64,000 nucleotides of DNA from Dillenia suffruticosa (Eukaryota; Streptophyta; Magnoliopsida; Dilleniales; Dilleniaceae): NCBI GenBank assembly GCA_033439265.1, contig JAVTVX010000027.1, positions 201,001-265,000 on the forward strand, in the 5' to 3' direction. Of this stretch, positions 6,709-63,100 are shown in pieces; the first letter of the stretch is position 1, and each line of letters opens with the position of its first letter. The notes under the pieces are model-generated. The model did not search any database, was not told the DNA's origin, and was given only the letters and a program-made list of their open reading frames with translations. The translations under genes were made by a program, and so were the position numbers.

Positions 6709-10060
<3,352 letters not shown>

Positions 10061-10900
10061 GGAATGGATGAAAAATTTTGATACAGCTGCTTTCTTTGAC
10101 AGCCGTCCATTCCTTGCAACCTGTATGAATTTGCTAGTTTTCTTTCCCTCTCTCTCTCTCTCTCTCTCTTTCTTTTTGGGGGTTTGATAGAAATTCCAAT
10201 AGGTGTCAATTTTTTCAATCAAAATGTAAATTAGAGATTATAATTGTGAGGAAATGATATAAGCGAGAAATTTGAAAGAAGACCTGTGAATTTTATGCTG
10301 TCCGTTCCCATCCCTTACCCCCTCTTGCCGCACCAGTGATTATGGGAAGGGCCATTATTTTTCAAAGGATGCTTCTGACATACAAAAGTAACTCGATGAA
10401 AGCTAGGTGACAGCTGTTGAGCTTAGTGTGGAAGTCATGCCATGTGCGTTGTGTTTGGGGAAAACACCTTTACATGTAATGTATCAGGTCGGGTATTTGG
10501 TTTTCTTTTTAAATTAGTAGTTCCATTTTGCCATACCGTTTGTTTCTTGCTTGTCTATGCAGGCCAGGGCATGTCTGGCTTGGCCATGTCCATAAGAGTT
10601 ATCTCCCTTTCTAAAGTGCAGCAAATGCTATTTTATTATTCAAGTCCGCAAAATCTGGAGATGAGGGAACGCCGGTCTTTGTCCTACTTTAGAAATTAGC
10701 TGTGCGACCGCTACAATAAAAATGATGTGATGCGCATACCACACCTAGGTAGAAATAGAAGTAGGATCGTAAATACAAGAATTGTGTCTCCGCCGTCTTT
10801 CACATTAGTGTTATTGGTCGATAAAAATCGGATATCGATATATAAAAATAAATAAATAAATAAACAAATATATATACTAGGAGGGTTCTAACAACATAAG
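10061..10900 (+). other. SRPK 3' UTR and downstream flank
   Basis: The 3' UTR begins after the stop at 10060 and includes a CT microsatellite at 10146-10169. No single poly-A site stands out; AT-rich candidates occur at about 10215-10260 and an AATAAAAATG stretch near 10714. The short open frame at 10442-10699 resembles no known protein. Confidence 0.5.
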
Positions 10901-10914
10901 ATGCGGCCTTAGCC

Positions 10915-13200
10915 TAAATTTTTTTTTCTTTCTTTTTCTTGTGTGCATTATAATTATTAAAAAAAAATAATAAAGAGTGAAAAAAAAGTAAAAAAGAAAA
11001 AGAAGAAACTAAAAAAAAAAATAGTAAAAAAAAAGGGAATAGTGGGAAATGGGTAACAAAGGAACAAAAAAAAAATGAGTGAAAAAAAAAGAATGGTGAA
11101 GAATGAAAAAAAATAAAAAAAGAAGAAGAAGAAGAAATCCAAAAAAAGTTTAAAAAAAAAAAAGAGGAAGGATTAAGGGTGAAAATAAAAAGAAGCAAAA
11201 AAAAAAAAGCAAAGAAAAAGATAAAAACAAAAGGGTAAATGATGAAAAAAAACCCCAAAAAAAGCAACAGTAGTAAACTGTTTCCATCCAAGGTGACAAT
11301 TCCTCCCACCTCCCCCTCCCCCTCCCCCTCCCCACTTATTTTTTTTAAAAAAAAAATCTTGAATGGTGGTAGTTGTACATGCGCACAGTTTTTTTATCAG
11401 ATGATATTTTAGTAAATTAAATAATCAAAAAAGTCCAAAAATAAGGAAATGACTCGAAAAAAACCAAATTGCACCAAAAGGCATCAAAAGGAGGAGGGAC
11501 TTCCAAAGAGAGTTGTGAAAAAAGTAAAACTCACAAAAAAAAGCAGAGAGAAGAGAAGAGATAAATTAATAAAGAAAAAATGGTGAAGGAAGAAAAAAAA
11601 AGAAGTAGAAAAAAAAAAGAATAGTAACCCAAAAAAAAGTGAAAAAAAAGAAAAGTGAAAGCTGGAAAAAAAGAAAAGTAAAATAAAAAAAAAGAATCAG
11701 AAGAGACCCAAAAAAAGAAAAAAAAAACGGAAGGTGAAGAGTAGAAAAAAAAAAGAAATAGTAACAAATCAGTAATAGTGGAACTCAAAAGAAAAGAAGT
11801 AAAATAATGGTGGAGGGTGAAAAAAAGTAATAAAAAAAAGATGGGTAAATGGTGAAAAAAAAAAGAAAAAAGGGAACAGTAGCAAACTGTTCCCATCCGA
11901 GTTAGCAATCCCTTCCACCCTCTCCCCACTTGTTTTTTTATATATGGTTAAGAAATATTAAAATTAAGATTATAGAAGAAACCCAAAAAAAAAAAAAGAG
12001 GGAACAATTATCTACCGTTCCCATCCAAGGTGTTACTTCCTCCCCCTCCCCCACTTGTTTTTTATTTTAGAAGAAAAAAGAAAGAAACCCTGAAAAAAGA
12101 AAAAAAAAAAAAAAAGGAGGGAACAGTGTGCTACTGTTCCCAACCGACGTTGCACGCCCTCCCACACCGCCTTCCCCACTTGTTTCTTTCTATAATAGTA
12201 AGATTATTATTATTATTATTATTAATTAAGAAGATTAAGAAAAATTAATATTAAGATAAAATATATATATAAAGTGAAGGATGGAAGAAAAGAGTAAAAA
12301 AGTAAAGAAGAAATAAAAAAAAGAATAGTAACAAACCGAAAACAATGAAAACAAAAAAAAAATGAAAAAAAAAAGCGTGAAGGGTGAAAAAGAAAAAAGA
12401 AACAAAAAAAAAAGAAGAAACCCAAAAAAAAGTAAAAAAAAAAAGATGGGAAGGGAGGAGAGTGAAAAAAAAGAAATAAGAAAAGGAAAAAGAAACCCCA
12501 AAAAAAGAAATAAAAAAAAAAAGAAAACAGTAGCTAACTGTTCCCATCCAATGTGGCATTCCCTCCTACTCCCCTCTCCCCACGAGTGATGAGTGGGAAA
12601 AAAAACAAAAAAGAAAAAGAAGAAAAGAAGTAAAAAAAAATGAACAATAGTAAATCGGTAACATGAAATCCAAAAAAAATGGAGTGAAAAAAAAAATGTG
12701 AAAGGTGAAAAAAAAGAAAGAAAAGGTAAATAGGTGAAAAAAAAAAGAAGTAAAAAAATAGAAATAGTAGCAAATCAATAACAGTAAAACTCGAAAAAAA
12801 AAGGAGTCAAAAAAAGAAAAGTGAAAAAAAGAAGTAAAAAACAAAGCAAAAAAAAGGTAAATAGATGAAAAAAAAAAGAAGTAAAAAGAAAATAGTAACA
12901 AACCGGTAACTGTGGAATCCAAACAAAAAAGAGTGAAAAAAAATGAAAGGTGGGAAAAAAAAAGAAGTAAAAAAAGAAGAAGAAATCCAAAAAAAAGTAT
13001 AAGAAAATGGGGGAAGGGTGAAAAAAAAAAGTTAAAAAAAAACGAAGAAAAAAAAGAATAAATTGGTGAAAAATAAGAAAAAAGAAAAAAGAAAAAGAAA
13101 CCCAAGAAAGGGAGAAAAAAAAAAGAGAGAAAACAGTTATACAATCTAACGTGACACATCCTCCCGCAATCTCCCGCAATCCCTCCCCCACACGTTCTTT
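10915..13200. repeat. Purine/A-rich array with recurring hairpin cassettes
   Basis: The plus strand is almost pure A and G for 2.3 kb, made of short variable phrases such as GTGAAAAAAAAGAAGTAAAAA and GAAACCCAAAAAAAG. The run is interrupted by GC-rich cassettes of about 65 bases at about 11262, 11872, 12000, 12119 and 12526, with a worn copy at about 13128. Each good cassette holds a hairpin (AACAGT, 5-base loop, ACTGTT), then CCATCCAA and a C/T-rich tail ending CCCCACTTGTTTTTT. A second recurrent phrase resembling AATAGTAACAAATCAGTAA occurs near 11758, 12326, 12646, 12766 and 12891. It looks like an imperfect tandem expansion of a small unit, possibly from a non-autonomous transposon. The long Phe-rich open frames on the minus strand are by-products of the TTTTC composition. 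No protein is supported. Confidence 0.75.
11872..11894. repeat. Best-preserved hairpin of the purine array
   Basis: A perfect 9-base stem GGGAACAGT / ACTGTTCCC with loop AGCAA. The same stem with a different loop (GTGCT) occurs at 12119-12141. Shorter versions occur at 11266-11282, 12000-12022 and 12526-12542. The stem is kept while the loops differ. Confidence 0.85.
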
Positions 13201-13290
13201 TCTATAATACTAAGAGATAAGATATATTGTTATTTAGCCGTTGTTTAACTAACACGATCACTTTTGAGGTTATCACGAGAGGCTTTTCAA

Positions 13291-13295
13291 GTCTT
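13291..13295 (+). repeat. Target-site duplication of the copia element, left copy
   Basis: GTCTT immediately precedes the TGTTG terminus of the 5' LTR. It is matched by GTCTT at 20621-20625 after the 3' LTR. Confidence 0.9.
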
Positions 13296-13915
13296 TGTTG
13301 GATTATTAATCCAACGTTGGGTTTATATGTTAAAATAATTATGTATTGCATATTGTCAAACCCATTAGATAAACTCATATGAAAGTGATCTGGTAAATTT
13401 GAAAAATTCAGTAATTTGAGTTTAACTATCTCAAAGGATATGGAAATAAATAAATGTGTAGATACCAATTGACATTTACTATTTATAATGGGTTAAATAG
13501 GGAATGTTTAAGGGTGACTTAAGAATAGCATCAAAGTTACCTAAATTCATGTGAATCATGTAAGATAACTTGAATAAGCTAAATAAGCAAATTTCAATTA
13601 TGAATGTAGAAATAAAGTCATCTCTACAACTATAAATAAGAGTTATAGTTCCTGGATCAGTGAATTACTCTTCTCTCTTATACTCCCATCATATAGAGAG
13701 ATTTTGTGAGAATATATTTGACCTGCAAGGCCGTGGCCGGGATTCTGCCCAGACGAAGGTCGGATCAAGTTTGTATTCTATTCAGTTTTCGGTTATGGAG
13801 TCAGGTACACTTCCATCCAACTTGAATTTCAATTTTAGTTCTTGAGTTTTGATTCCGATAATTTAACACGATATTTGGCATATTTTTTTTTTGCATCAAG
13901 TAATTTTTCCCAACA
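13296..13915 (+). repeat. 5' LTR of the copia element
   Basis: 620 bases, TGTTG...CAACA. A TATA-like sequence (CTATAAATAAG) near 13629-13639 lies in the expected promoter position. It is about 94% identical to the 3' LTR over the first 205 bases compared by eye. Confidence 0.93.
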
Positions 13916-13917
13916 AG

Positions 13918-13930
13918 TGGTATCAGAGTC
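13918..13930 (+). other. Primer-binding site of the copia element
   Basis: TGGTATCAGAGTC, two bases after the 5' LTR, matches the 3' end of initiator methionine tRNA in complement, the usual primer for plant copia elements, apart from late positions. Confidence 0.9.
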
Positions 13931-14031
13931 TCTTGTGTTTGAATCATCGGGATTTTTTTTTGTATATTTAAGATTTACTATGATTTTAGTATTTTATGAA
14001 TTCTTTTTTGATATTTTGGTTTTCGGCAAAA

Positions 14032-14067
<36 letters not shown>

Positions 14068-15536
14068 TCAAGTTTTTGTTTTTTTTTGTGGATTTTAATA
14101 AAAGAAAATGTTATGAAAATTTTTTATTTAAAGTCGACATCTAGTGTTTCCAAAAAAAAAATTAGGAAAATTTTTTATCAAAATCAACATTCGGTGCTTC
14201 AAAAAAAAAGGAATAAATTGTACTCTCGAGATTGCAAGAGCATGGCAAATACTTTTGGCACATATATATATATATTTTAAGGAAGTTAATTTTTCTTTTA
14301 AAAAAAGTTACCTTTTTTTTTTCAAGAATCTTTAATATCTATAATTTTCTTAGGCAAATATTTTTTTTAAGGAAGTTGACCTTTTTTTTGGGGTCCTATG
14401 CACTTAAAAAAACAATTTAAATAAAACTTTTGTTTTGGGAAATAAAAAAAAAACGAAATCTTCAGATTTTAGTTTCCTTTTTTTTTTAAAGAATGATATC
14501 CCAATTTCAGAATAAAACTTTCAGATTCTAATACTATAAAACTTTTCTTTTATTATAAATCCACGTCACATAAGAATTAAGGTATGGGTCATTTTGAGGC
14601 CAAATAGAACCGACTTTGGGTGTAAAAAGTTTTGAAACTCATTGAACTCAATTGAACCCATTTTCATCCTTATCATTCTTTACTGTCTCTTTTATATTCA
14701 AAACTGGTCATTCTTTTAGTATGCGATGGCATGATATGTCTAGGAAAGTTCTGTCAACTAAACAGGGATAAATCTAAAGTTGGCTGGTTCTTAAGCAGTT
14801 TTACAAGAACTCACCACCTACCTGGAAACTTTCCTTGTGTCCTCTGCTACAAAATGGGGATTGGCCAAGTTTTGAATCAGTTGTCGGAAAAAAGTTAAAA
14901 ACTTTGATTTTATGCCGACAACGAACGTATAGGGATGGAAAAGAAAGATGATGGAAACAGATTTAATAAAATTGAGTTTCCTTTTTTCGGGCCCAATTTA
15001 AAGTTTATAAGATTAGGCTTTAAATGGCCAAATTCTTAAGATATTGAGTCCATCAGGATAAAATTGAATCTTTTTTCAATTCCGGATATTATTCAAATAT
15101 GAGTATGGTTTTGTATATATTTCGAGATACATTAATTGAACCAATATGTCATCAAAGTGATCTCTTTTGTGGATATTAATTTATTTTTGAGATATAAAAA
15201 GTTGTGTGTATGCAATTCATGTGGATACCGATCGACCCAAAGGAATGTCCGTATTTGACGAAATTGCATGTGCACATTGTGGTAATAAATGCGTGACAAT
15301 TTTTCGGTTTTTTTCATGTGATCAATTCATCAGCCCAAAGGAAGATAGTTGATTGACATACTCTTGTTGTCAGTGTTTGATTACTACATTCAGATGCCAT
15401 TTACAAATTAATTATTTTGTCCAAAGATAAAATATTAATGGAGTTATCGGTATCTTATGATAGGAATTTCTCATATTTGAATTTATTTGCTTTTAAAGTT
15501 TCATTTGAGTATATATATTGATCATCGTTCTCTATT

Positions 15537-16355
15537 TTGACAGTTAACACTATTTCCACCAACATCAATACCCAACTCAACTCTATTCCCATGTTGAATG
15601 ACTTAAATTTCAAATCATGGCGAGAAAATCTTTTGATTGTGCTCAGGGTTATGGATATGGACTTTGCGTTACGGACCGATTGTCCTCCTCCAGTTACAGA
15701 TAAGAGTACCTCTGATGACAAGAGGGAGTTTGAAAGGTGGGAGAGGTCGAACCGCATTAGTCTCATGATCATGAAGAAGGCTATCCCAGAAAGTTTTCGG
15801 GGCACTATATCTGATACTATTGCTATAGCTAAGGACTTCATTGCTGATATTGAGAAAAGATTTGCCAAGAATGAAAAGTCAAAAATAGGTACGCTTTTGG
15901 TAAGTCTTGTGTCAATGAAGTATAAAGGTCAAGGCAATATTAGAGAATACATCATGGAGATGTCTCATATCGCTTCAAAGTTAAGAGCACTCAAGCTTGA
16001 CCTCTCTGAAGACTTGCTTGTGCATTTGGTTTTAATATCTCTTCCAGGATAGTTTAATTAGTTTAAAGTGAACTATAATTGTCAGAAATAGACTTGGTCT
16101 CTTAATGAGCTTATCTCTCACTGTGTCCAAGAAGAGGAAAGGTTGAAGCGAGATCGGATAGAAAGTGCTCACCTAGTCTCGACCAAAGGCAAGAAAAGGA
16201 AGCCCGCTAAGGATGCTGTAAGTACGACACCTCAGAAGAAGCAACAAAAGGTACTGAGTGAACTGGAAAAGAAGGGATGCTTCTTTTGTGGTGCTGAGGG
16301 ACATAAAAAAGAAGGAGTGTATCAATTATCATGCTTGGCGTGCAAAGAAAGGTAT
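15537..16355 (+). pseudogene. Copia gag remnant
   Basis: The frame encodes a capsid-like protein (LNDLNFKSWRENLLIVL; KSKIGTLLVSLVSMKYKGQG; IREYIMEMSHIASKLRALKL), typical of plant copia Gag. It has no ATG at its start, a stop after SLPG at about 16050, and another shortly after. Downstream lies a CCHC zinc knuckle (CFFCGAEGH...), broken by a frameshift within a run of A and G at about 16310, so that its last cysteine is in another frame. The product would have packaged element RNA. Confidence 0.85.
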
Positions 16356-19300
16356 GCCTCTGTCTTTAGTTTGTTCTGAGATTAATTTAATTTTAGTACC
16401 AGGACACACTTGGTGGTTAGATTCCGCTGCAACCACTCACATCAGTGTGTCCATGCATGGTTGCCTAAATTACCGACTGTCAAATGATGGTGAAAGATAC
16501 ATTTATGTAGGTGACGGCAATAAGCTTCCAGTTGAGGCCATATGAAGGTTTAGATTATTGTTAAGGATCGGATTCTTTTTGGATCTGCATGAAACATTTA
16601 TTGTACAGTCTTTTAGACGAAATTTGATTTATATTGCTGTATTGGATAAATTTGGTTTTACTTGTTCTTTTAAAAATGAGAAAGTTAGTTTGTTTCTTGA
16701 TTCAAAATTAGTTGGTTCCGGTTCTTTATTAGGATCCGATAATCTTTATTTACTTGATACTGTGACTTGTTTTAATGAATCTCTGCATACTGGTACTCGA
16801 AATGTAAGGCACAAATTAACCAACGAGAATTCCTCCTCGTTGTGGCACAAAAGATGAGGTCATATCTCCAGACAGAGAATAAAGAGAATTGTGTCAGAAG
16901 GAATTCTTAATTCCCTTGATTTAACAGACTTTGACGTTTGTGTAAATTGTATAAAGGGAAAACAAACTAATAAAAGGGATTATGAGGCCAAAAGGACTTC
17001 AGGCGTCTTAGAATTGATTCATATGAATATCTGTGGACCATTCCTTTCGGTTTTTTGGAATGGTCAATGATTTTTTATCACGTTCATAGACGATTATTCA
17101 AGATATGGCTACATTTATCTCTTTACATAAACGTCCCAATCTTTGGATATGTTCAAAATTTATAAAGCTGAAGTTGAAAACCAACTCGGCAAACAAATTA
17201 AGAAAGTCAGATCTGATCGTGGTGGAGAATACTACGGCAGAAATGATGGATCAAGTGAACAGCGTTCAGAACCGTTTGCTCACTTCCTAGAGGAATGCGG
17301 TATCGTCCCAAAATATACCATGCATGGCTCACCCGCCATGAATGGTGTTGCTGAAAGATGAAACAGGACTCTTCAGGATATGGTAAAAAGCATGATTGCT
17401 CATTCTGCCTTACCTGAGTCACTCTGGGGAGAGGCACTGAAGACTGTAGCATACCTTCTCAACAGGGTTCCTACTAAGGTAACTACCAAAACCCCCTACG
17501 AACTTTGGACTGGCAGACGTCCTACTGTGAAGCATCTGTGCGTTTGGGGTTGTCCAGCTAAGGCTAGACCTTTTAGGCCCAATGAAAGGAAACTGGATAC
17601 TAAGACAGTTAGTTGCTATTTTATAGGATACTCTGAAAAATCTAAGGGGTACAAATTTTATGATCCCACAAATAAGATCATTTTTGAGTCGAGAAATGCT
17701 TGGTTTTTTGAGAATGTTGAGTTTGCGGGGGAAGATATGGTTAGAGACATTGTCTTTCAAGAGGAATATATTAATATTTTCACAGGTGTTATTGAACTTG
17801 ACCAGGTTTCTATCCCCAATCCTATTCAAAACACAATAGAGTTAGACAATATTGGAGAACCCTCCAATTCCGAAAAACAAACTCTACCACCTCAAGAACC
17901 TATGCTATTAAGAAGATCCACTAGAGAAAGAAGAAATGCAATTCCGGATGATTATGTTGTATTTCTTCATGAACATGATGTTGACATTGGAGTGATGGAA
18001 GATGATCCGATCAACTTCCATCAAGCCATTGAATGTTGTAACTCTCAAAAGTGGATCGATACTGTGAATGAGGAGATAAAGTCCATGAAGGACAATGACG
18101 TTTGGGATCTTGTCCCATTGCTTGAAAGAGCAAAACCCATTGGTTGTAAATGGAAATTTAAAACCAAAAGGGATTCGAAAGGTAATGTGGAGAGATATAA
18201 AGTTCGTCTTGTCGCAAAAGGTTTCACACCGAAAGAAAGCATTGATTATAAAGAGATTTTCTCTCCAGTTTTTTCGAAAGACTCTTTTAGGATTATAATG
18301 GCGTTAGTGGCACATTTTGATCTTGAGTTACACCAAATGAATGTAAAGACGGCATTTCTCAATGGTGACATTGATGAAACGATCTATATGTTACAACCAG
18401 AAAACTTTGTGTCGTGAGATCCAAAGAATATGGTTTGCAAACTTAAAAAATCTATCTATGGACTCAAGCAAGTATCTCGACAATGGTATTTTAAATTTCA
18501 TCAAATAATCATCTCCTTTGGTTTTGAGATCAATTTAGTTGATGAATGTATATACCATAAGTTCTGTAGGAGTAAATATATTTTTCTGGTTTTATATGTC
18601 GATAACATATTGCTTGCCAGTAACGATAAAGACCTATTATATGAAACTAAGATCTTTCTCACAAAGAAATTTGAGATGAAAGATCTTGGAGAAAGTTCTT
18701 TCGTATTGGGCATTCAGATACATCGAGATCGTTCTCAAGGTATTCTGCAATTGTCCCAAAAGGGATATATTGAAAATGGATATATTGAAAAGGTCTTAAC
18801 GAGATATGACATGCAAAATTGTAAACCTGGTGATACCCCTGTATTTAAAGGAGACAAATTTAGTCTCAAACAGTGTCCCCAAAATGATATTGAGAAACGG
18901 GAAATACAGAAGATTCCTTATGCATCAGCAGTAGGAAGTCTGATGTATGCTCAGGTATGTACGTGTCCAGATATTGCGTACATTACAGAAATGTTGGGCA
19001 AATACTTAAGTAATTCTGGAATGGACCATTGAAAATCTGTCAAACGAGTCTTGCGGTATCTACAGAGAACGAAGGAATATATGCTCACGTATCAAAGGTC
19101 GAAACGGCTTGAGATTACTGGGAATACTAACTCCGACTTTGCGGGATGTCAAGATAGCATGAAGTCTACAACAGGCTATATCTACATGCTAGCGGGAGGA
19201 GCCGTTTCTTGGAAGAGTGTTAAACAATCTCTTATAGCATCTTCCACAATGGCGGCAGAATTCATAACGTGTCATGAAGCATCCAACCATGGCATATGGC

Positions 19301-19602
19301 TGCGAAATTTTGTCACGGGACTGCGGATAGTAGATAGCATTGATAAATCACTCAAATTATTTTGTGACAACAAATCGGCAGTCCTCTATTCCAATAACAA
19401 CAAGAGTTTGACAAAGTCCAAACACATAGACATCAAGTTCCTGGTTGTTAAAGAAAGAGTACAGAGTGGTCAGATGTCTATAGAACATATAGGAATAAAC
19501 TCCATGATTGCGGATTCACTTACAAAGGGTTTGCCACCCAAAGTATTCCTTGAGCATGTTGCTCGTATGGGCGTAATGCCACTTGAAGACATACAATTTT
19601 AG
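16356..19602 (+). pseudogene. Copia pol remnant (protease, integrase, reverse transcriptase, RNase H)
   Basis: In order there is a protease with WWLDSAATTHIS (Gly of the active-site triad changed to Ala) at about 16413. A GAG-pre-integrase motif SSLWHKR follows near 16830. The integrase core shows IDDYSRYGYI and VRSDRGGEY (16980-17350). The long open frame 17380-18417 covers the integrase end and the start of reverse transcriptase. The frame 18430-19032 has YVDN where YVDD is required. RNase H (19051-19602) shows CDNKSAV and KHIDIK. In-frame stops occur after WHKR, near 17070 and 17130, at 17359, at 18415 and at 19030. The element is dead on several independent grounds. Confidence 0.92.
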
Positions 19603-19984
19603 TGGGAGTTTGTAAATCATAAATGCTCTATTGATATAAATATTGAGTTACTACAGTTAAATTCTGCCGAAATAAAGATTCAGCCTTTTTTATTCACTTT
19701 GATTTGGTATGATCTCACTAAAGAGAACCAGTTGGAAATAGACATGTTAAAGATCACATTGCATGACATTTCCATGCTACGCATCCATATCATAATCTAT
19801 GTCATTTGGTTATATCAATTTACGTGACCATTGAAGGTTGAGTTACGAAATTACAACAAAAGCCGCCTTGATCCTAAGTTGATATGATTAATGGACAGGA
19901 TTGATTGTAAATATATTTCAGTATTGGCAGAGAAGTTGAACTCATTCAGTTATTTAGCAATTACATAATTATAAAATCTCACAT

Positions 19985-20002
19985 ATAGCCCAAGTGAGAG
20001 AT
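19985..20002 (+). other. Polypurine tract of the copia element
   Basis: The sequence ATAGCCCAAGTGAGAGAT abuts the 3' LTR start TGTTG at 20003, the position where plus-strand synthesis is primed. Confidence 0.75.
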
Positions 20003-20620
20003 TGTTGAATTATTAATCCAACGTTGGGCTTATATGTTAATATAATTATGTATTGCATACTGTCAAACCCATAAGATAAGCCCATATGAAAGTGATCTGG
20101 TAAATTTAAAAAATTCAGTAATTTGGGTTTAAATATCTCAAAGGATATCGAAATAAATAAATGTGTAGATACCAATGGACATTTACTATTTATGATGGGT
20201 TAAATAGGGAATGTTTAAGGGTGACTTAAGAATAGCATGAAAGTTACCTAAATTCATGTGAATCAGGTAAGGTAACTTGAATAAACTAAATAGGCAAATT
20301 CCAATTATGAATTTAGAAATAAAATCATCCCTACAACTATAAATAAGGGTTATGGTCCCTGCGTCAGTGAATTACTTTTCTCCCTAATACTCCAATCATA
20401 TAAAGAGATTTTGTGAGAATACATTTGACCTGGAAGGCCGTGGCCGGGATTCTGTCCAGACGAAGGTCGGATCAAGTTTGTATTATATTCAGTTTCCGGC
20501 TATGGAGTTAGGTACACTTCCATCCAACTTGAATTTCAGTTTTAGTTTTTGAGTTTTGATTCCGATGATTTAACACGATATTTAGCATATTTTTTTTGTT
20601 TCAAGTAATTTTTCCCAACA
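20003..20620 (+). repeat. 3' LTR of the copia element
   Basis: 618 bases, TGTTG...CAACA, collinear with 13296-13915. It is followed by the GTCTT target duplication (20621-20625). Confidence 0.93.
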
Positions 20621-22362
20621 GTCTTGCCCCCTTTGTCTTGAGAGAGTGCATTCTATACAGTAATCTTCGTCCCGCAATCCAAACACAAAATAGGAGTAGG
20701 ACCAACCCCCCAAAAAAAATGATGATCCCTCTATTAGAAGAGAGAAATGGGTTGGACACATCTTTTTAAGCAATCCAATCTTTGTTATAATTACAGACTT
20801 CCAAATTGCAAACAAATCCGATTTCTCTCTCCTTTTCTTCCCCCTTTTTTTTTAACTCGAATTTGAAACATTTTACAAAAGAGAAAAGAGAACGGATTCC
20901 TCATAGCATAAATAGAAGAGAAAATTTTATATATAACGAAAAACTGTAATTAATAGCATACATACACCTGCCGGATTCAGCTATTCCTTTCTTAGTCATC
21001 TAATCCATGCAATGCGTACCAAGTTTTGGCTTTTGCAGTTCTAAGCTCTATCAATAAGGATAAAAAACACAGAGGGAAAGAAAATAAGATGGAAGCAAAC
21101 TATGGGGAGTGTAGACTACAAGTAGCGGACTGCAGTAGTCAGAGCGCTAATGTACTTCCCATTTTAATGCATACATAGAGTTTGCCACGCTATTCCATCT
21201 GGGCGTTTCTCAACCGTAAACAAGCAACACGACTATGCTTTGTCAACATAAATGAATTATAGGCCCTTTGGCATGGCTTGAATCTTATGAATTCAATTTG
21301 ATTTTACATGGCCCAAAAGCCGATTAATTTGCGACATGAACTCAAGGCCTAATGAATAAAATATACTAAATTTTGCCGAGGCACATCATTTACACGGTAT
21401 GCGTCCATCTTTCTCGAAGTATGGCGACTAGATCTTTGTGTTACAAAAAAAAAATGACGACTAGATCTTTCTCGATAGCTGCCCGATTGACGAGAAATGA
21501 AATTTTTGAATACTCATCGATAAGAAAAGTAGTTCCCTCATCAATTGAAACTTTCTTTGACCGACAAAACTTTAAATCCCTTAAAATTTCGTTTGATACC
21601 CATGAATTTCAGGATACCTCTTTAAGGAAGCTAGAATTTTAGTGTCTCGGATGTATACGAGACTCACACAGGTAAGCTATATATATACATATATATTATT
21701 AACCAAACCGAGCAAATAAGTCCTCTTTCTCTCAAAACTTACACAAAACACACAAGGCATATAGAGCTTTTTTTTCAGTTTGTTTTCTCTTTTTCTGAAA
21801 ACCGCTCTTTAACTTGAGTATCAAAGTTTTTCCCATCAAAGCATCCTCCAACGGCTTGTTGCAGGTCCTATCAATCAAGATCAACAAACGACTAGTTATC
21901 CCACTTGAGTTAGCAGAGCTATCATATGTGGAGACGAAACCCACATCCAATAAATTAATTAGAGATGGATTCTTAAATAGTTGTGAGACTGATCAAGATA
22001 GATGTTCCATTTTTTCCACCATCTTCTAAGGCTAGTTAGGGAATGCAAAGCCCTAATGAGAGGAAGCTTGGCATGTAAGTTAGCCATAACCATAGGGAGG
22101 TCAACCGTTGAGCAAATTGGTTTGCCGACTTTGTTCCTCTTTTTTAAAAGAGTCTAACTTTGTTACACTCTGCTATGTACTAGCTTAGTGTTCTTTTGCC
22201 AAGGGACCTATTACAGGTGTTAATTCAAATATTTAGACTATTGCTATTTTGAACTTCTATCCATGTAGTTGGGGTTTTTTTTACTAAAATGTTATAATTT
22301 TGGTTTAAAATTATTAAAATGACAGTTTTTTTCCCAAATGTACTAATATGACATTTGGAGAA

Positions 22363-30303: not shown

Positions 30304-31374
30304 CTACGACTGCATGATTTTATTTTGTTTGATGCAATGCGGTCCCGAGATCTCTTGACATTTCCTTATTGATGTCGGCTCAACAGCCACAACACCATTG
30401 CTTGAAGGCTCAGCTGAAGATATATGCACCTTGCTCCTGCTTTGTTTTCCCAATGTTTTGTCAGAAAACATAGAGTTTCTAAATTCATGCTCCTCGTTAG
30501 GGTTTGCTCGATCCTTAATGGTGCAAATACTAAGAGGCAACTTCTTTTGTTTGATCCTTCCCTTCTTTCTGCCAATAATGACCATACTATCTACCACATC
30601 ACCATTTTTCTCCTTTGAATAATCCATTCCGAATTCCTCAGTTTCAGTTTCCGATTGGTCAGATCTATTACAATTAGAAGCCTCCCCATTTTCCCCCATT
30701 ATAAATGCTTCAGAATCCACCTTGGAATGTGGAGAAGCCCCGTTGCATGGGGAATAAGGATTTCCCTCCAAAACTTCGGCTCGAGCTAAAAATTTAGTTT
30801 TTCCAAAGGAGGAGAAGCCTTTAAGCTTCTTATGCCTCTTTGAATCAGACCCTGAACAATTCTTTGAGATTCTAGGAGAACTGTTCATAGCTCTATGCAG
30901 TGTCCTGGCTAATTCTTCATCGGTTTTGTTATTCTCAACAGGTCGGTGCTTCATGTACAAGGCATGAACCGGGATGTGCTTCTTCATCTTATTCTTCTTC
31001 AGATATCGGTCTCCAGAGGCAGCCTCTGCCTCATCCAGGACCTCTAACGCGTTCTTGGCAGCTGCAATAGCATTGGCCGCAATAGCAGCCTTCTCTTCAG
31101 CAGCTGCTTTTGCAGCCTTGGCCGCCTTGACAGCAGCAGCAGCCGCTTTCTTAGAAGCCTCCACGATCTCCTCCGGGGAAAGATTAGGGTTACTCAAATA
31201 AGAAGTCAATAGACTGTTAAGACGACCATCGAAATCACTGGGAACAGAAGATAGCAAAGACATCCGAAACGAATCATGGGAAACCTGTTTCTTCAAACCG
31301 GCAAGAAGTCGCTTGCGGGGCGGCAAAAGGACATCCGCATCCAAGTGATTAATGTCACAGATGTTATCCTCCAT
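30304..31374 (-). CDS. Conserved plant protein of unknown function, Ala/Lys-rich
   Basis: A single coding exon gives 356 residues with a clean ATG. The N-terminus DINHLDADVLLPPRKRLLAG is followed by a helical Ala/Lys-rich segment (about 67-115, EEIVEASKKAAAAAVKAAKA and on) that may form a coiled coil. The rest is Ser/Lys-rich and low in order, with several basic clusters that could direct the protein to the nucleus. I do not recognise a catalytic domain. Its place between SRPK and MLH3 matches At4g35510 (paralogue At2g17540), of unknown role; this identity is inferred from gene order. A 5' UTR intron is likely: donor GTACTT at 31813, acceptor CAG at 31383-31385. The plus-strand Ala-rich frame at 30974-31201 is its shadow. 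Confidence 0.82.
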   Translation of the reverse strand: MEDNICDINHLDADVLLPPRKRLLAGLKKQVSHDSFRMSLLSSVPSDFDGRLNSLLTSYLSNPNLSPEEIVEASKKAAAAAVKAAKAAKAAAEEKAAIAANAIAAAKNALEVLDEAEAASGDRYLKKNKMKKHIPVHALYMKHRPVENNKTDEELARTLHRAMNSSPRISKNCSGSDSKRHKKLKGFSSFGKTKFLARAEVLEGNPYSPCNGASPHSKVDSEAFIMGENGEASNCNRSDQSETETEEFGMDYSKEKNGDVVDSMVIIGRKKGRIKQKKLPLSICTIKDRANPNEEHEFRNSMFSDKTLGKQSRSKVHISSAEPSSNGVVAVEPTSIRKCQEISGPHCIKQNKIMQS

Positions 31375-33699: not shown

Positions 33700-34382
33700 T
33701 TTGTTCATCGAGCCTCACACCCACTTGCTGAGGTGGGAGATTCTCCGGCTTAGTAGAGACTGGGCTAATGCCTTCCTGTGCAGCACCGAGCCAAATCCTA
33801 GGAACATCTCTCGGGTGAAATGGCTCCCTCCTAACCCAGGTATGATCAAGCTCAACTCTGATGATGCGGTGTCTAAGTCCTCCAGGAAAGCTGGTGCTGG
33901 TGGCCTTCTTAGGAGAGAAGACGGCAGCTGGCTTAAGGGATACACTATCAACATTGGGAGTGTGGATGTCCTCACAACGGAGCTCTGGGGTCTGAGAGAA
34001 AGCCTCAAGCTGGCTAAAGCCTTACGAATTGAGCAACTTCAAGTTGAAGTGGATAACTCTTCCCTTATGAATCTTTTAGCTCTCGAAAAGCACAGAAACC
34101 ATCCCCTTCTTTTAATTTGCGCGGAATGCAAAGACCTACTATTAGAGTTAGGGGTCAATCATGTCTCGCATGTTTTTAGATTTTTAGAGAATTAAATAGA
34201 TGTATCGACCTCTTGGCCAAGCTGGGTTTCAGTTCTTCCATTGGAGTCAGAGTCCTGGACCACCCGCCTCAACAGCTGGCTCCCCTGCTACTTGATGATC
34301 TGTTTGGCGAAGGCTCCCTTAGGAGCATTGTCCCCAGTCCTAGCCGCGTTAGGCATTGGGGCGTTTGGCATTGGGTGTTGTA
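33700..34382 (+). pseudogene. LINE-type RNase H domain relic
   Basis: The frame 33701-34195 encodes a plant non-LTR-element RNase H domain: VKWLPPNPGMIKLNSDDAV, KAGAGGLLRREDGSWLKGY, LTTELWGLRESLKLAKAL and VEVDNSSLMNLL. These hold the expected Asp, Glu and Asp metal ligands. After HVFRF the conserved end (RCIDLLAKLGFSSS and following) is in another frame, reached by a shift near 34190, and it stops at about 34380. No reverse transcriptase or endonuclease precedes it, so it is a 5'-truncated LINE tail or an orphan domain copy. Confidence 0.8.
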
Positions 34383-34577: not shown

Positions 34578-35036
34578 AAGGTGCGGGTCTGGGGTTCCTA
34601 GCAAGGCCCGGTCAGGTGCATCTCTCTCTCTCTCCCCGATTGAGTTTCTTGTTTCCTTTCCTAATCAAACCCTTATACAGCGATTTTCTGTGTTTCTTGA
34701 TCCCCACGTTTTCCTTTTTCTTTTATTTTATTTTATGCTCAGTTCTTTGTTATGGGTCTTGCAGGGGTATTGTGAAATGCCCCTCTTCCACCTTCTTTCT
34801 CCATTTCTAGCCGAGCAATAATGATTACTCCCAGTTAATCCTTCAATCATTTCGAAATCCATTCTTGTCAAGGCTAACGGTAAGGGTTTTCCCTCCCCCA
34901 CCACATTTTTTTACTTATTACATTTGCTATTCATGCTCTACTAGTTTTGATTGTCTAGTACATGCTACCTTACCTACAATTAGAATTGCATGTTGTTGTA
35001 CAATTGCTTTCTGTTTCTCTTTCAGCTTTGCATACA

Positions 35037-38000
35037 ATGCGGAGCATTAAGCCCTTGCCCTAGGCTGTCCAAGTGCTGTACATTCCAGCATTCTTCGTCC
35101 TCACTTCTCTAGGATCGTTGAAGATCTCATTTTCAACTGTTTGGATGCTGCAGCTACCAAGGTAATCAGCTTTCTCCCTTGGGTTCGGATACGATTTACT
35201 AACTAGTCCTTTGTTTGAAACCATTACTTTGGGGTTCAGGCCCAAAACACCTATGCCTACCCGCTTCAACAGTTTGTACTAACTTGGGTATATCAATCAA
35301 TGTTTGGCCCTACTTATATTTTGGCAGTCCACATATATATTTTCAGGTGCTTGTCTCGATGGTGGTTGGGACCTGCTATGTCAAAGTTGCTGATAATGGT
35401 CAGTCTATGTCTCCTTTTGCATGGGGTTCCAACACTTTAAATATTGAACCTTACTGTAACTTATAGTTATACTTTTGCACGTTCCCAAGATGGATTGGTT
35501 TTGTTGGGGGAAAAACATGGTATGCCTTTATCCATTATCATTTACTTCCCAGAACTTATCTTATGCAGTGATCGAGAATTTAACTGAGAGGATCAACCTG
35601 TTTTTATGGCCTTTTCATCTGTATGAAGTAAATAGTAGTGGGAAGAGACTGAACTGGTTATAGTTTCCTAGGCATTCCATAAACTCGCACTCACTAGGCA
35701 AACAATGTTCTTTTATTAGTTATAGATCCATAAATGTGGGAATTGTTTCAACAGAACAAAACCAAAGACGGAAAGTGCTGTCCTGCCTTGTTCGCCTGCT
35801 TAGGCTTTTGTGCATGCCTTTCAATAGTAATGAGGCATTCATAGGGTATTGGTTGCAATATAAACCTGCCCTTGAAGAAGACACCAAGACCATTTCATTT
35901 AGCGTTAACCATCCTGCATTCAATCACAAGGTAATACCTTGGAATGCGCCTCACAAGGTTCTGAATTTCTGTGGAGTGGTAGATGTGTCACAATGTTTTA
36001 TGTTAACAGCAACGTCAAAATCTCAACATTGGACCAGTGTGTTGCAACTAATGAAATCTTTGGTTTCCGTGGACAAGCATTGGGTTCCATTTATGATGTT
36101 TCCTTACTAGAAATCCTAACAGAAGTTCATGGGTGGCCAAATGGATATCACAAGGTTATTAAGGCAAGTTTTGCTATTAATCTTTTAACTACAAGAGATC
36201 TCTTACTATCCAGGTGCACTATATTTGCAAGTTGTAGTAAACTTCATCAGATCATCAGGGCTGCAAGTCGGTGCATCTAGGAATTGATGACACTAGAAAA
36301 AAAAGTTGGCAAACAGGTAAGACATTTTAATAGTGGTTTCAGTTTGTACTATGTCATTTACTCGCATGACACTTGTAGACACTTACATAAAAAGAAACAT
36401 GCTCAGTATACATTGTCCTATTAAAATTACACAAAGAAACTGCTGTGTCAATATTTGCATCTTTCCTTGCCCCACACATTTTTTTTTTTTTTGTGATTGC
36501 TTAGTATGAGCTAGATGAACAAAATGCAAGCATCTAAGTCAATCGCTTTAAGACCTCAGGCATCTCATCTTTATGTTTAAGGAAAAAGAAAAAAAAAAGG
36601 AAAATTTTAGCATCTGATCTGGTATATGATATGACGCTGCCTTTTGATGACTAAAAATGCATCGTATCCTCAGTATCTCAGTTTCTTTCTTCCATGCTTT
36701 ATATGCAAAATGCATTGATATCAAGATCTATACTACTATCAGAGGATTAGCATTAGTTTCTGCACATGCAACTGTATATCAAAAACTAATGCAGACACAA
36801 TTCATCTTGGCATATGCTTTGGCAATCAGTTAAAGTGAGCATGTGCTATCGAAGGATTTTCGTTGCTTTCTTGAATATGACTCTGCTTCACACATCTTGT
36901 GTGAATTTTCTTGAAATTAGCATTTTCCGTTTAGCCGTTGACCATTTACAGATTTACCGGATGCTAAATGTCTTACTGCAAAGGCAGCATATCTGTTCTC
37001 TCTTTGGTTTTGATATACTAGAAAAGCACATAATAGTACGCTTTTTTTTTAAATCTTTGAATTTTTCCTCATTTAATTATTGTAAGAGACTTATTTTACA
37101 GCCAACCAGTTCAAAGGAAGCACATGCAGTCCAGATCCCATCTTTTAGCAAATTGTTCCTTGTACGATCTTAAAATTTATATATCTCAATTAAGCTGCAA
37201 AAAATAGCACATAATGCTGGCATAGTTTTGCTCCAATTGACCCTGGATGCATTATCAAATCTGTAGCCCCAAGAAGGTCTCAGATGCAATCAAGAAATGT
37301 GTACCAAGGATTGCCTTTGTTCACTTAATGGTTTCCTACAAACTTATTGATGTTGACAGGTATGTGCTTGCTAAAACTGTATGATGTTGACTGATTCTTT
37401 TTACAAGCCTTATTAATTTGAGATATATCATTTCACTTCAGCGAGGATGAGCTGCTGTGCACAAACCTTGCTCTTCTCCCTCTGGCGCTAATGGCAAGTA
37501 ACTTTGGGAGTGATGTTACCAGTTCATTGCAAGCATTGGAAATTTCTGATGGTGGATTAAAGCTTTCAGGATACATTTCTACTTCTTGCAATTCCTCATC
37601 TCTGAAGGTGGGTTGATCCCTTATATTGGAGGAGCAGAAGTGGGTGTATATATTTGCTTGTGCACAAGTGGGTGTTGTTCTTTCTGCTGGGAGTTGAGGG
37701 AGTATCTTTTAAGTTATCCTTCACGTGGTAAACTTGGTTGTAACTAGCCTCAAATGGACAAAACTTCACACTCGCCAAAGCGTAATCTTGTTTCGAACTT
37801 TGACATTAACTAATGGAAATGGATGAATCATGAATCTAAGCCAAAAGCTGTCCCTTAATGCCTGCAAAGAGTTCCCTGCATTCCTGGTGAACTTTAAGGT
37901 GTTTTGGTTTATCTTAGATAAGCCTACATTGGCAACATTTTTATCATTGTTTACTTTCTCAAAACATATTCCATTATCTGTTCGTACCTTGGCCATCTTT

Positions 38001-39224
38001 CTTTGATAGTCCTCTCTTAAACCCTCCCCAGACCCTACAGTGGCAGGAGCCTTGTGCATGGGCTGCCCCTTTCATCCTTGAGAATGACAGCAGTAATTGC
38101 TTTTGGGACTACTAAATACTTATAGAATCTATTGTAACAAGATCAAGAATTTCATTTGGCACTTGTGCATGTATGCAGTAACCGAGGTAGCAATGCAGTC
38201 TGCCCATAATTCATCTCCTTGAATTGTTGTAGAGGTACCATGCATACTTGGTGTAAATTTGTCTGATATAGATCTCTTGGAATTTATGGAACAGGTAAAT
38301 TGAAGGGAATCTTTTTATTTCAAATCAAAATGCATTTTGTTTTGTGTATCTGTGGGTTTATCTTTATTAACCTTCAAGTGTGTGCTCATGTTGGGGCAGT
38401 GAATCCTTCGTTGCCCATTCATCCTTTTTTGATTTTTGCTGCTTAATGCTGGCTGACTTGGTGTTTCTTGCAATGTACAAGCTTTCTGACTCAGGTGGAT
38501 TGTCAGTGATACCACCATCTGTTCATCGAATTCTTAATAACAAGGCTCGCAGAGGTATAATCTTTAGTTTCTTCAAAAGTTTCAGTTTTTTGTTGGAATG
38601 GGGGATCCCTTGCTGGTGTATATGTGCAAAAATTCAAAAGCAACTTGGATGGGAAAAGCTTAGTTCAATTTATGTCACGAGATTGCTTGGCCTTCCAACA
38701 ATCGAAACAACAGTTTTTCAGAGTCTCTGTTTTCTCTTTCAGTGCCGAGTTTCTGTCTAGGAAGAATTGTCTCTTCAGGCTTTTATAAATTTTGCCCAGT
38801 CAAGTTCGAGTTTAGGTGCAAAAATGTTCGAATCAAGTTCGTGTTTAGGTGCAATAATGTTTGGGGACAGATTCTTACCTTCAGAATATTCCCTTATATT
38901 GGAGGAGCAGAAGCAAACCTCTGTTTCCAAGTGAGTTGAATGATATTTGGCTTTTATTATTATTATTTTTTTTTGCTTAGTTTGGTAGAGTGTGGAGATT
39001 GACGGAGATTTTTTTTGGATTTGGGATATATTTTTGTTTAGTGTGCTCGTGGGCGACCCACAACCGTGCCTCTTGTCAACTTGGGGGCATTGCGGAAAGA
39101 GATCACTAAGCTTGAACTAGGAAATGGTTGTGGTTCGAATGATTTGTTTCATGGATTACGTCACCACGAAGCCAGTATCGAGTGTTCAGCTCAGTGTCTA
39201 GCCATTGCCAAAGGTCAGTATTGA
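35037..39224 (+). pseudogene. MLH3: Decayed DNA mismatch-repair gene MLH3
   Basis: Introns and exon order are kept, so this is not a retrocopy. Exon remnants resembling MLH3 lie at 35037-35161 (MRSIKPLP then TAG at codon 9, and a one-base shift before SAVHSSILRPHFSRIVEDL), 35347-35398 (VVGTCYVKVADNG) and 35491-35518 (DGLVLLGEKH). Next come about 36034-36163 (EIFGFRGQALGSIYDVSLLE), 36259-36316, about 37102-37134, 37265-37359 (SPKKVSDAIKKCVPRIAFVH) and 37442-37607. C-terminal exons lie at about 38232-38294 (VPCILGVNLSDIDLLEFM), 38481-38554, 38870-38929 and 39042-39224 (GRPTTVPLVNLGALRKEI). The large middle coding part is absent, and with it the expected DQHAxxE endonuclease region. MLH3 normally pairs with MLH1 in meiotic crossover resolution and repair. 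With a stop at codon 9, a frameshift and the central loss, no functional protein is possible. Confidence 0.9.
37608..38231 (+). other. Foreign or rearranged segment in place of the MLH3 central exon
   Basis: It begins with a 23-base sequence (37618-37640) identical to part of a C-terminal MLH3 exon at 38890-38912. It continues with sequence not recognised as MLH3. On the minus strand 38059-37766 is open but resembles no family with confidence. The segment probably records a deletion repaired with filler DNA or a transposon insertion. Confidence 0.5.
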
Positions 39225-39603
39225 TGGATAGCGAAAACAAAAGAGAGGTATGGTTGTAAAATTTTCCACAATTCTATGTAGTCAAGACTCAAGAAAAAAT
39301 GGTTGGTATGATAAAATCTTATAAATTCTCTTATCTTTGTATATATTGATATATAACCATCACATCAATCAAAATGGAAATATAGATTCGTGTTTGTTTC
39401 ATTCAACACTACCTTTTGCTCACTACCAATTTTTTCCTTTTTTAGCTCTGAATTTGCCATCAGGTTGCAATAAGGGGTTCTGACAGCCAAATGCATCTAA
39501 TCACCACCCAAACCAGTTGGTGAAACCGCGGAGTGAATGTCCACTGGAGTACCCCACCAATCAATCAATTAATGAATTCCTTTTTACAAAACAACTGCCC
39601 TTT

Positions 39604-40465: not shown

Positions 40466-41901
40466 CTACGTACTTGGATTTGAGAGGATGTTTTCATAGA
40501 AAGATAATGGTTTTATAGTGGAGGCATTGGATGGAATCGTTGGCTCCACTTTGTTGCACTGTGGTTCCAAGGAGTGATGAATCTCTGAGCTTTGAAAGCA
40601 CATATCTTCGGCTCTTGGAACAACATTTTGTTGGGAAAGGAGATTTCCAGGCTTGGTCTTTTTGTCCTTGGGTGACTCAACCTCGGTCTCCACTTCAGAC
40701 TCAGCATTGTTGTTTGGGGTGTTAACAACTTGCTTCCTTTTCGATCGAGCACGCCTGTTCTGAAACCAGTTATACACATTTGATTCATTTATTTGGCCAT
40801 GTTGACTCAATTCACAAGTTATCTCTTTGATCTTCTCCCTGCTTGGGGTCCCATTCCCTTGTTCAAATATACGCTCCAGAATCTGAAGCTGTGTAGCTGT
40901 TGGAGTCCATCGTTGTCTTGCAGTAATTTTCTGTCCAGCAGATGTCATTAACGGATCACAATACAAATTTCCAAGCCGGACTCCTGAAAGAGCAACGTAG
41001 GATTAAGCAAAAGGAAGGCTATTAAAAAAAAAAAGAATCTCGGTTAAAACTAACCTATACATTAATTCATTCTTCAATTTAATTAATCAAAGGGTCTTTT
41101 GTTGTGTTATGATTAAGATAACTCTTGTTAATGCATTTGTATTGAATGTTATTAGAAAAAAGAACCAGTAGACAATATTTTGAATTATTTATTGGTTCTC
41201 AAGGAGTTACAACGTATATTTGTAGAATGATGATAAACATGGATACGAAACATGACTAATATGGAAACTAGATATCCCCTAGAATCAAAACATTCTGAAC
41301 TATTTCCGAAAATACTGAATTTTGATATTCCTTAACATATGCAAATGAGAACGAATAGGAAAAGATAAGGGGAAGATCACATTTTCTTGCAATGTTCATT
41401 ACCTACCAGTGATAAAAAATTCAAAATGGGAAAAGAAAAGGGCCATATTTTCAATCATTCCCAACTGGGTTAATAATGGACTGGTTCAAAAGATGAAAAG
41501 AAGTGGGACAATCTGCGGCATTGGAGTAGTTGGTTCTAACAGAATAATCTTGTAAGCTACAAGACAAAATCCAAAAAGCCACTTCACTTGGGAACACTAA
41601 TAATGGAGACATGGGAAAAATTGAAAAGAAAGCAACAAAATTTATGGTTCCGTGTTTGCCAGAACCCCTAAAACAGTAAAACCCTAGAAACTCAACCAGA
41701 GATGTTTAGTCGGAACAGAATGAAGACCATACCACACACCCACAAACAAATTACACACAATTTTCAAAAAATACTAATTACCCCAAAAGCACCGACTGAA
41801 ATCATAAAAAGTAACACCAAAACAAGGCAAAAGTAAACTCATTAAATTAAGAGAGAAACGGTTTGATGCGTGCAATCGCCATTGATGCAATTTTTACAAA
41901 A

Positions 41902-60100: not shown

Positions 60101-63100
60101 GCATGCTTTTCACCTCCTTGTTATAACTCGTAAGGCAACTTCCCATGCTGAAAGTTAGATTGAAAAGTGTAAGAAACCAGTGCAATAAATTTTATCTAAT
60201 CATCCGAATGAACTCATTCCATCTAGGAGATTGCTTTTGCTACCAATATTACTATGTGCAAGAGGGGATCTTACATTCAGAAAGAAGCAATCTTCTTCTA
60301 TGCATGATAAAAACTGATCTCGTCACAGTTGGTTCTGTTGGGAAACTAGCAAGATAATGGTTACTCTGATCTCACACCTGTCAACCATGTTAACTTCTAT
60401 ACTTTTATCCTGAATATGTCAACTAAGTTGGGATTATTTGGGAAATATGCATCATTTTTTATGTACTTATGAGGTCCAAATTAAGGTTAGAAAAAAATGG
60501 TTAGCATGAATATTTTCTTGTTTGTGGGACCTATCACCTGAAAAATATTGTTCATGCCTTTTATGAAGACAATTCTTGTTATTTTTACAAATTGCATTGC
60601 CAATACATTTTTGTTCTCTCCGTTGTGTAAATGCTTATTTAACCTGCACTTATTGACAAGCAGAGTTCTTATAGTATTTGGAGATGGGCTGATAACGCTA
60701 TGGGCAATCCGAGAAAGCCAACCGGTTTTCACTACCGGTGAGAGCTCGTTCCAGTTACCTAGTCAAAGTCTTGAAAGAAAGAAAGTAACTTCAGCATGCT
60801 GGGGATGCCCCACTGGGACTAAAGTGGTACTTGGATACAGCAATGGAGAAATCCTAATTTGGCCTGTCCTTCCAGCCCCAAATGCTAGTGCAGAATTAGC
60901 AATTGAGAAAGAACCATGTTCTGTGCAAAATGCTCCTATTTGTAAACTCAATCTTGGATATAAGGTGGACAAGGTTCCTATAGCTTTGTTGAAGTGGGCT
61001 TATGTGGATGGGAAGGCAAGTCGGCTATATGTAATGGGTGCCTCTGACTTCACATCTGTAAACTTGTTGCAGGTATCTGAGTAGTTGGCTATATGTTTGT
61101 CCTTATGTTAAAAAACTCCTTTGGTAAACGGTTGTGTGTGTGGCTTTCATAAGCATCTATCCTAACCCCATTCTTGCTTGAAGATTCCTTTTGTTTCGCA
61201 CATCACAGTCTGCTCACTTAACTTGACATAACCTTTGCTAATTTAGAGGGACGTCACACTCATTTTAACAAATATAAGTAACTTCCTGGAACATCCTTAT
61301 ATTGGTTCTGCATTCTGGCCATCTGGGTTTTAATTTTATTTTCCTCATAAATATTTATCTGGTATCTTCTAGTGAAAAGTTCTAGTTTAAATTTGGCAGG
61401 TGATAATATTGAATGAACAAACAGAATCTCGTACAATTAAGCTGGGACTTCATCTTCCTGAGCGATGCCTTGACATGGAAATTGTTTCAATCACCAATGT
61501 TCAAAACAAGCATAAACAAGATCTTCTCCTTGTTGTTGGAAAATCAGGTCACATTTATGTCTATGATGATCATGGTATTGAAAAATACCTATCTCAGTCC
61601 CAGTCTAAGTCTTCCCCATCTCTCCCAAAGGAGGTAGTAGTCAAGCTGCCATTTCTTGATTCATGCATTGCTTCAGCAACATTGACCACGGGCAACTCAC
61701 ATTTGTCATCTTTGGTGGATGAGGTAAGTCGTGGACAAGTTCTCATTGGTGGAACTCAATTAACTAAGCTCTTGAGTTATGCCATAATCTTCATTCCCTA
61801 AACACTTAGCTTTGTGCTTTGCTGGTCATGCAGGATTACATTCTCCTGGCAAAAAGTGTTCCACCTCTTCTTCCAGCCGAAATCAAGTCAAGAGATGGAA
61901 CTCACTTGATTTCAATGCATTTCTCAGGGTTTTCAACAATAAGAAACTTGTATATTACGGGGCACAGTGATGGAGCAATTAATTTTTGGGATGCATCATC
62001 TCCTTGTTTGCTTCCTATTTTTTCGTTGAAACAGCAGGTAAGAGCTTATTTTACAGTGTATATTGTCATTATATCCATTTACTTGTTGCACGTCAGACGA
62101 CACTCCATGGCTACTCTCATCTTTGAACTTATCATCAACTTCAGCAAGAGTGAACATGGATCAGGGATATGTGAACAAGCAGGGGCAATGTGCTACTACT
62201 TGAAACTTGAGAGAATATTGTTAAAAGGTCTTATGTGATTTTTATGCATGAATGCATATATTTATTTGCAAGTCATTAGCAGGGAAAGGGTAAAAAGCAT
62301 CCATAAGATGCAACTCTTGATAGCTACCAGTTAGATAAGATAGAAATAGTAGGAAGACCATCTTTGTTGATTTTCACCTGTTTATGTCATCTTTTAACTA
62401 AGTTTTTGAATCAATTGCACCATACTATCTTTTAAATTTCATCAGTATTTTCTTGGAGATTGTATGGTGTTTGGTGCTAATATTTCGGTTCTTATGATTT
62501 CCAGAGTGAAGATAATTTCTCTTTAAGTGGCATACCAGTAACAGCATTGTATTCTGATATCAACTCGAGGCTTCTTATTTCCGGAGATCAGGATGGGACA
62601 GTAAAGCATTCATCTCTTAGAGATTTAAGATATAATATCCTTAGCTGTGTATATGTCAGAGTTGTCTTACTTCTGCCTTTTTTATGTGCAGGTTCGCATC
62701 TTTAAATTTAAACCTGAGCCCTTTGCTTCAGATAATGCATTCTTATCTCTACAAGGTAATCTTAAGGTCAACATATTGTAGCCTCTAATTCGATTGTTCC
62801 CTGCTAATTTACTATTAGGTAGTAAAACAGAATAGGTTTGTATTCTTATGCTTCTAACTAGTCTAGATAGACCATAAGATTTCATAGCAGGAACCTAGAA
62901 TGAGTAGACCAAATGATAAACTCCAACTCGGCACAATTTCATTGATTATTTTAAAGTCTGTAACATAATCTTTTATCATTTTTTAACCAATGAAACTGTG
63001 CTTTGTTGTTAAAATTATGTGATTCGCTCATAGATGCTTCATATGACAGCAACAAAATTTCCAAAACTAACAACTTATCCAATCCCTTTCTTAATTTAGG

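Follow-up and report, generated by a model that had tools for sequence, protein, structure and literature searches.

In flowering plants, MLH3 and MLH1 together form MutL-gamma. In Arabidopsis, the available part of PMC11920794 indicates that MLH3 may limit its complex and that its misexpression lowers crossovers and fertility. Meiotic duplicates are said to revert fast to one copy (Lloyd et al. 2014, as cited in the available sections of PMC6813927), although those sections themselves report no such loss of meiotic duplicates in wheat. In Arabidopsis, templated fillers count as a hallmark of joining by polymerase theta (PMC10923293). Literature searches for angiosperm MLH3 duplicates or pseudogenes listed nothing to the point, and no genome paper on the Dilleniales was listed by title.

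The locus described here, a decayed MLH3, lies in a stretch of 64,000 nucleotides of the Dillenia suffruticosa genome (C27:201001-265000; hereafter "the window", numbered from its first letter). It resembles the fractionated homeologues of Lloyd et al. 2014 (as far as they are described in the available sections of PMC6813927) in that one collinear meiotic copy is dead and the other, here on contig C12, is open and constrained; unlike those homeologues, the dead copy can still be read and the order of its lesions partly recovered. The C12 copy, like flowering-plant MLH3 in general, has an N-terminal ATPase part, an endonuclease motif and a C-terminal end, whereas the window copy amounts to about 30% of the protein and is without the endonuclease motif.

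Identity and Exon Map of the Decayed MLH3

Pieces of MLH3 were located by reading positions 35000-39300 in three frames and by tblastn with the MLH3 of Dillenia turbinata, and they stand far above chance. Among the best 120 of 174 relatives of the locus, the named ones were mostly plant MLH3, the top full-length relative was the MLH3 of D. turbinata (P0001; E 3.1e-89), and the N-terminal pieces agreed with it at 69% (58% for the runner-up). The N-terminal pieces also matched bacterial MutL, MLH1 and PMS2 (16 distinct sequences at E ≤ 0.001, best 1.7e-10), and the first PDB match of the C-terminal pieces was yeast MLH3 (3 sequences at E ≤ 1, best 9e-8); the locus is nearer to MLH3 than to MLH1, PMS1 or MutL. 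In a tree of 22 rows (the window copy and 21 hand-picked from the 120 listed of 174), the window copy and D. turbinata MLH3 formed a clade with 100/100 support and end branches of 0.23 and 0.059, respectively. No MutL family was found by Pfam hmmscan in the joined window pieces, and a MutL_C family search of the whole genome gave no match, the intact C12 copy included, a silence that is probably due to the short exons.

The decayed gene spans positions 35037-39218 and retains exons 1-8 and 22-25, in order and with introns present, and it lacks exons 9-21 (Table 1). Lesions were called by aligning the window copy exon by exon to the intact C12 copy, in which codon 9 reads CAG where the window has TAG; the GC donor of exon 4 is common to both copies. 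Across the aligned bases the two copies agree at 1005 of 1137 exon positions and 2510 of 2990 intron positions. The earlier note had read this locus as a pseudogene with a start at 35037, a TAG at codon 9, a frameshift in exon 1, ordered exon remnants with their introns and a missing middle region, and the alignment confirmed each of these points, adding ruined splice sites and further frameshifts. An open frame running from the N-terminal ATPase part through the MutL C-terminal part is found in the C12 copy and not in the window copy, in which the endonuclease motif falls in the deleted stretch. The locus has the features of a duplicated pseudogene: its introns are kept and its flanks are homologous to those of the intact copy. 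The sequence just 5' of its start aligns to that copy (34621 on, 82%). A processed or stray copy was rejected on the strength of the introns and flanks, both of which match those on C12. Further exon remnants upstream of 38235, suggested by a weak tblastn match, were likewise rejected, because the corresponding stretch of the C12 copy is intronic.

Table 1. Features of the window around the decayed MLH3 and their counterparts on C12.
Feature	Position in window	Strand	Remarks
Protein kinase exon (SRPK in the earlier note)	8349..9146	+	second copy C12:136289-137011
Upstream neighbour, open ORF like AT4G35510	30304..31374	-	second copy C12:142834-143901
Exon 1	35037..35161	+	ATG 35037; TAG at codon 9 (35061-35063); 1-nt deletion near 35072; counterpart C12:149321-149446; tblastn
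Exon 2 remnant	35347..35398	+	splice sites intact
Exon 3 remnant	35481..35519	+	9-nt deletion; acceptor cag changed to cac
Exon 4 remnant	36010..36163	+	frameshifting 1-nt deletion; GC donor
Exon 5 remnant	36259..36316	+	+1/-1 indels that cancel (read by eye; the alignment itself is of equal length)
Exon 6 remnant	37077..37134	+	acceptor tag changed to taa; donor gt changed to at
Exon 7 remnant	37267..37359	+	
Exon 8 remnant	37442..37607	+	compensated indels within (read by eye); donor intact
Filler at deletion junction	37620..37640	+	21 nt; exact copy of 38893-38913; 24 nt exact with TCC overlap
Exon 22 remnant	38235..38294	+	
Exon 23 remnant	38482..38554	+	
Exon 24 remnant	38849..38930	+	frameshifting 4-nt deletion; contains filler template 38893-38913
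Exon 25 remnant	39042..39218	+	stop TAG of intact copy changed to CAG
Downstream neighbour, homeodomain exon (WOX13 in the earlier note)	40466..40966	-	second copy C12:160047-160511

Both copies read GFRGQAL (window 36010-36163, C12:150419-150573), and D. turbinata also has Q. The Q stands, unlike in flowering-plant MLH3, in place of the E of GFRGEAL, which we take to be an ATPase motif; this residue (98) is invariantly E in the outgroup MLH3 sequences (at least 8 of 9 rows filled). An RNase H-like (RVT_3) fragment at 33701-34195, about 0.85 kb 5' of the start of the dead gene, has no match above 60 bits in the C12 block.

An Open MLH3 Copy on C12

The genome searched comprises 596 Mb in 37 contigs. 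With D. turbinata MLH3 as query, 36 matches at E ≤ 10 were obtained, 33 of them on C12:149321-158745 or at the window locus on C27; the remaining three, all weak, lie on C20 (two) and C17 (one) and are by their motifs presumably PMS1 and MLH1. The DNA of the broken copy gave six matches, all on C27 itself or C12 (3 of 3 candidates scored), so that the whole-genome protein and DNA searches found two copies of MLH3 only. The predicted C12 gene has 25 exons and encodes 1264 amino acids, with a terminal stop and no internal stop or frameshift. Spliced alignment gave 24 exons when guided by D. turbinata MLH3 and 25 when guided by a Davidia protein, and the two models disagree at several of the small-exon borders, some of which are uncertain. 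At residue 1047 the predicted protein carries DQHAADERIRLEE, an endonuclease motif whose general form in MLH3 we take to be DQHA(X)2E(X)4E. It is identical to D. turbinata MLH3 at 1141 of 1243 aligned residues (102 differ). Judged from these features, the C12 copy would be the working gene and the window locus would be silent. Directly after the stop codon of the intact gene its last exon is partly duplicated in tandem (C12:158600-158780), and an intron of this copy holds a tandem repeat of about 62 bp (C12:149866-149941) that is single in the window (35526-35587).

The search of the genome with the MLH3 protein, which the earlier note had proposed as the way to choose between fractionation and gene loss, thus returned an open copy in a paralogous block, and the window locus is not a unitary pseudogene. 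A lineage that has lost MLH3 and makes its crossovers without it, the second of these alternatives, agrees with the death of the window copy, but it is refuted by an open gene of 25 exons with its motif and its constraint, and a close relative of that gene is annotated in D. turbinata; we give this reading practically no credence.

Collinear Blocks and Neighbouring Genes

The window was compared by blastn with C12:100001-220000, together with the stretch just upstream of the window, and matches above 60 bits were kept. They form one collinear series of about 54 kb, from C27:199220 to window position 52228 against C12:124222-170000, with the gene order EH/EF-hand gene, kinase, AT4G35510-like gene, MLH3, homeodomain gene and DUF4378 gene. 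There are two collinear blocks, as expected of homeologues, one with an open and one with a broken MLH3, and the fractionation that the earlier note had offered as one of its two alternatives is borne out by the open gene in the duplicated block. Past C12:170000 no blastn match above 60 bits was found (C12 searched to 220000), and C12:170001-175000 reads N.

Pairwise dS between C27 and C12 is 0.193 for MLH3, near that of five of the seven neighbouring ORFs (0.134-0.197: kinase 0.134, AT4G35510-like gene 0.197, homeodomain gene 0.195, two pieces of the DUF4378 gene 0.163 and 0.167); two are higher, a third piece of the DUF4378 gene (0.284) and the EH ORF, the value of which (0.317) is given no weight as its alignment enters non-coding sequence (one stop, 64% identity). 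Misassembly, or placement of a C12 allele on another contig, is highly improbable in the light of these values, because allelic dS is usually far under the 0.19 or so seen here, the adjacent genes are also present twice at similar divergence, the blocks differ by large insertions, and in D. turbinata the AT4G35510-like gene likewise lies on two contigs.

A genome search with the AT4G35510-like gene gave two matches (7 of 7 candidates scored), and the closest named relative of this gene is from D. turbinata (P0121, 95%; best 120 relatives listed). Its order relative to MLH3 is present in both blocks, and the two genes have close locus tags in Canavalia (VNO77_40485/40483), Sarracenia (U1Q18_039969/039964) and Diplodiscus (Ditri18aG0126500/0126700), three pairs noticed in two lists of relatives rather than counted systematically, which lends independent support to an ancestral gene order. 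Of the suggestion that the window holds the ancestral locus and not a stray copy, the ancestral neighbours stand; the implied contrast with the other copy does not, since the C12 gene sits among the same neighbours.

In the interval from the kinase to the AT4G35510-like gene, the window has a large insertion (10820-20959) without a C12 match above 60 bits, and the ORFs at 15537-19602 within it presumably encode a Copia-like polyprotein. For the tomosyn-like exon at 60548-61084 no close second copy was found in the genome, the only match being one of 31% on C35; its counterpart place on C12 would fall at or past the N stretch.

A Large Deletion with a Templated Filler

Homology to C12 stops at window position 37619 (C12:152013) and restarts at 37641 (C12:156946), so that 4,932 bp of the intact copy (C12:152014-156945), holding exons 9-21, are replaced by 21 nt. 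The template of this filler lies in exon 24, about 1.27 kb away, and a detail new to this locus is that its middle was removed by one 4.9-kb deletion with an exon 24-templated filler. The filler has both of the bases that separate the broken exon 24 from the intact one in this stretch (codons 1195 and 1198; L1198 is invariant among the outgroups). Since these two bases are specific to the pseudogene, the deletion is later than both substitutions, barring a subsequent conversion that equalised filler and exon 24, and the gene was drifting already when its middle was lost.

A templated insertion of at least 6 nt with microhomology marks a theta end-joining scar, and both occur here, as the 21-nt filler and an overlap of 3 nt on its left side. 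With the polymerase-theta deletions of Arabidopsis, as described in the available part of PMC10923293, the junction has in common the kilobase size of the deletion, the one-sided microhomology of 3 nt and the filler templated nearby; unlike those cases the scar is natural and old and lies in an already decaying gene, and its form suggests polymerase theta as the likely repair enzyme.

Timing of the Loss and Constraint on the Two Copies

When a tree was built for the AT4G35510-like gene from 9 rows (the window copy, the C12 copy and 7 hand-picked from 120 listed), the window copy grouped with a D. turbinata contig of 21,980,876 bases (100/100), and C12 and a D. turbinata contig of 23,501,000 bases stood beside that pair without further grouping, from which it follows that the duplication predates the split of D. 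suffruticosa and D. turbinata. The latter species has the gene on both of these contigs and an intact MLH3 on the one of 23,501,000 bases, which fits retention of MLH3 by the same block in both species. This MLH3 was the only row named Dillenia in two MLH3 protein searches (120 of 174 listed, and 118 of 118), and no annotated MLH3 remnant of D. turbinata appeared under that name among the 118 rows, many rows being nameless.

The two D. suffruticosa copies differ at 62 of 359 codons. The count excludes codons next to the indels in exons 5 and 8. Polarised with 9 hand-picked outgroup proteins, 39 of the changes fall on the broken lineage and 7 on the intact one; the other 16, the stop at codon 9 among them, were unplaced. 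Positions invariant among the outgroups are changed at 36 of 167 in the broken copy and at 11 in the intact one, and the ratio of nonsynonymous to synonymous changes, for the resolved share, is about 0.74 on the broken lineage and 0.13 on the intact one. The share of the time since duplication that the broken copy spent under constraint comes to about 0.30 (from -0.13 to 0.58 on bootstrapping), so that loss immediately after duplication also fits.

These figures bear on whether the window copy could still be of use, be it by encoding a short protein from its N-terminal part, by giving rise to a regulatory RNA or by acting as an MLH1 decoy. The alignable sequence 5' of its start and the greater likeness of exons than of introns would agree with such a role, but the excess in exons would be expected from constraint on the other copy together with a past functional spell, and the early stop, the several frameshifts and lost splice sites, the changes at outgroup-invariant positions and the high nonsynonymous ratio all argue against it; we judge a residual use very improbable.

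Extent of the Duplication and the Fate of PMS1

PMS1 on C20 (24238001-24244000) has a partner on C17 (22958455-22960084) of which the 5' part only is present, in four pieces of 69-87%. Its exon 1 has an in-frame stop, and no match to the later exons was found within the 9 kb read on C17 (22957001-22966000); the DNA search that revealed it gave 53 matches, mostly repeats (40 of 306 candidates scored). In both MutL genes, MLH3 and PMS1, one copy has decayed. An exon part of MLH1 (C17 at 13.03 Mb) matched only itself among the matches listed (64, filled with repeats; 40 of 269 candidates scored).

A segmental origin of the two blocks accords with a collinearity traced over about 54 kb only and not seen past C12:170000, and the loci lie near contig starts (C27 0.2 Mb, C12 0.13 Mb), where subtelomeric exchange would be conceivable. 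It is nonetheless rather unlikely, as a partner of the unrelated PMS1 (C20 at 24.24 Mb) lies on C17 at 22.96 Mb with a similar degree of divergence, and D. turbinata keeps both AT4G35510-like copies on different contigs. Similar divergence at two unlinked loci favours duplication of the whole genome, which the two block pairs (C27/C12 and C20/C17) make the likely origin.

Discussion

With high confidence we read the locus as a case of fractionation. Two MLH3 genes in collinear blocks arose by a duplication that was most likely genome-wide and common to D. turbinata; of the two, the C12 copy probably stayed functional and constrained. The C27 copy would have been freed of constraint about a third into the time since duplication, with a wide error, and then gathered point mutations and small indels. 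At some later point, after two of these changes, a single event of double-strand-break repair removed exons 9-21 with the endonuclease motif, leaving a filler derived from exon 24 in the manner of polymerase-theta end joining. As such the case adds one more instance of a familiar process, ordinary fractionation.

Why a single MLH3 was retained may be a matter of dosage, an idea suggested by analogy with Arabidopsis, where MLH3 may be limiting (available part of PMC11920794). A stronger version, in which loss of second copies of both MLH3 and PMS1 was favoured because a cut in MutL dosage settled meiosis after genome doubling in Dilleniaceae, MLH3 first drifting and then being gutted, is speculative, and we consider it improbable.

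The striking possibility of a plant without MLH3 is removed. What remains in the window is a readable fossil of a crossover gene, one that may be sensitive to dosage, on its way back to a single copy in the Dilleniales, and the order of its lesions could feed a wider survey of the rate at which meiotic duplicates die.
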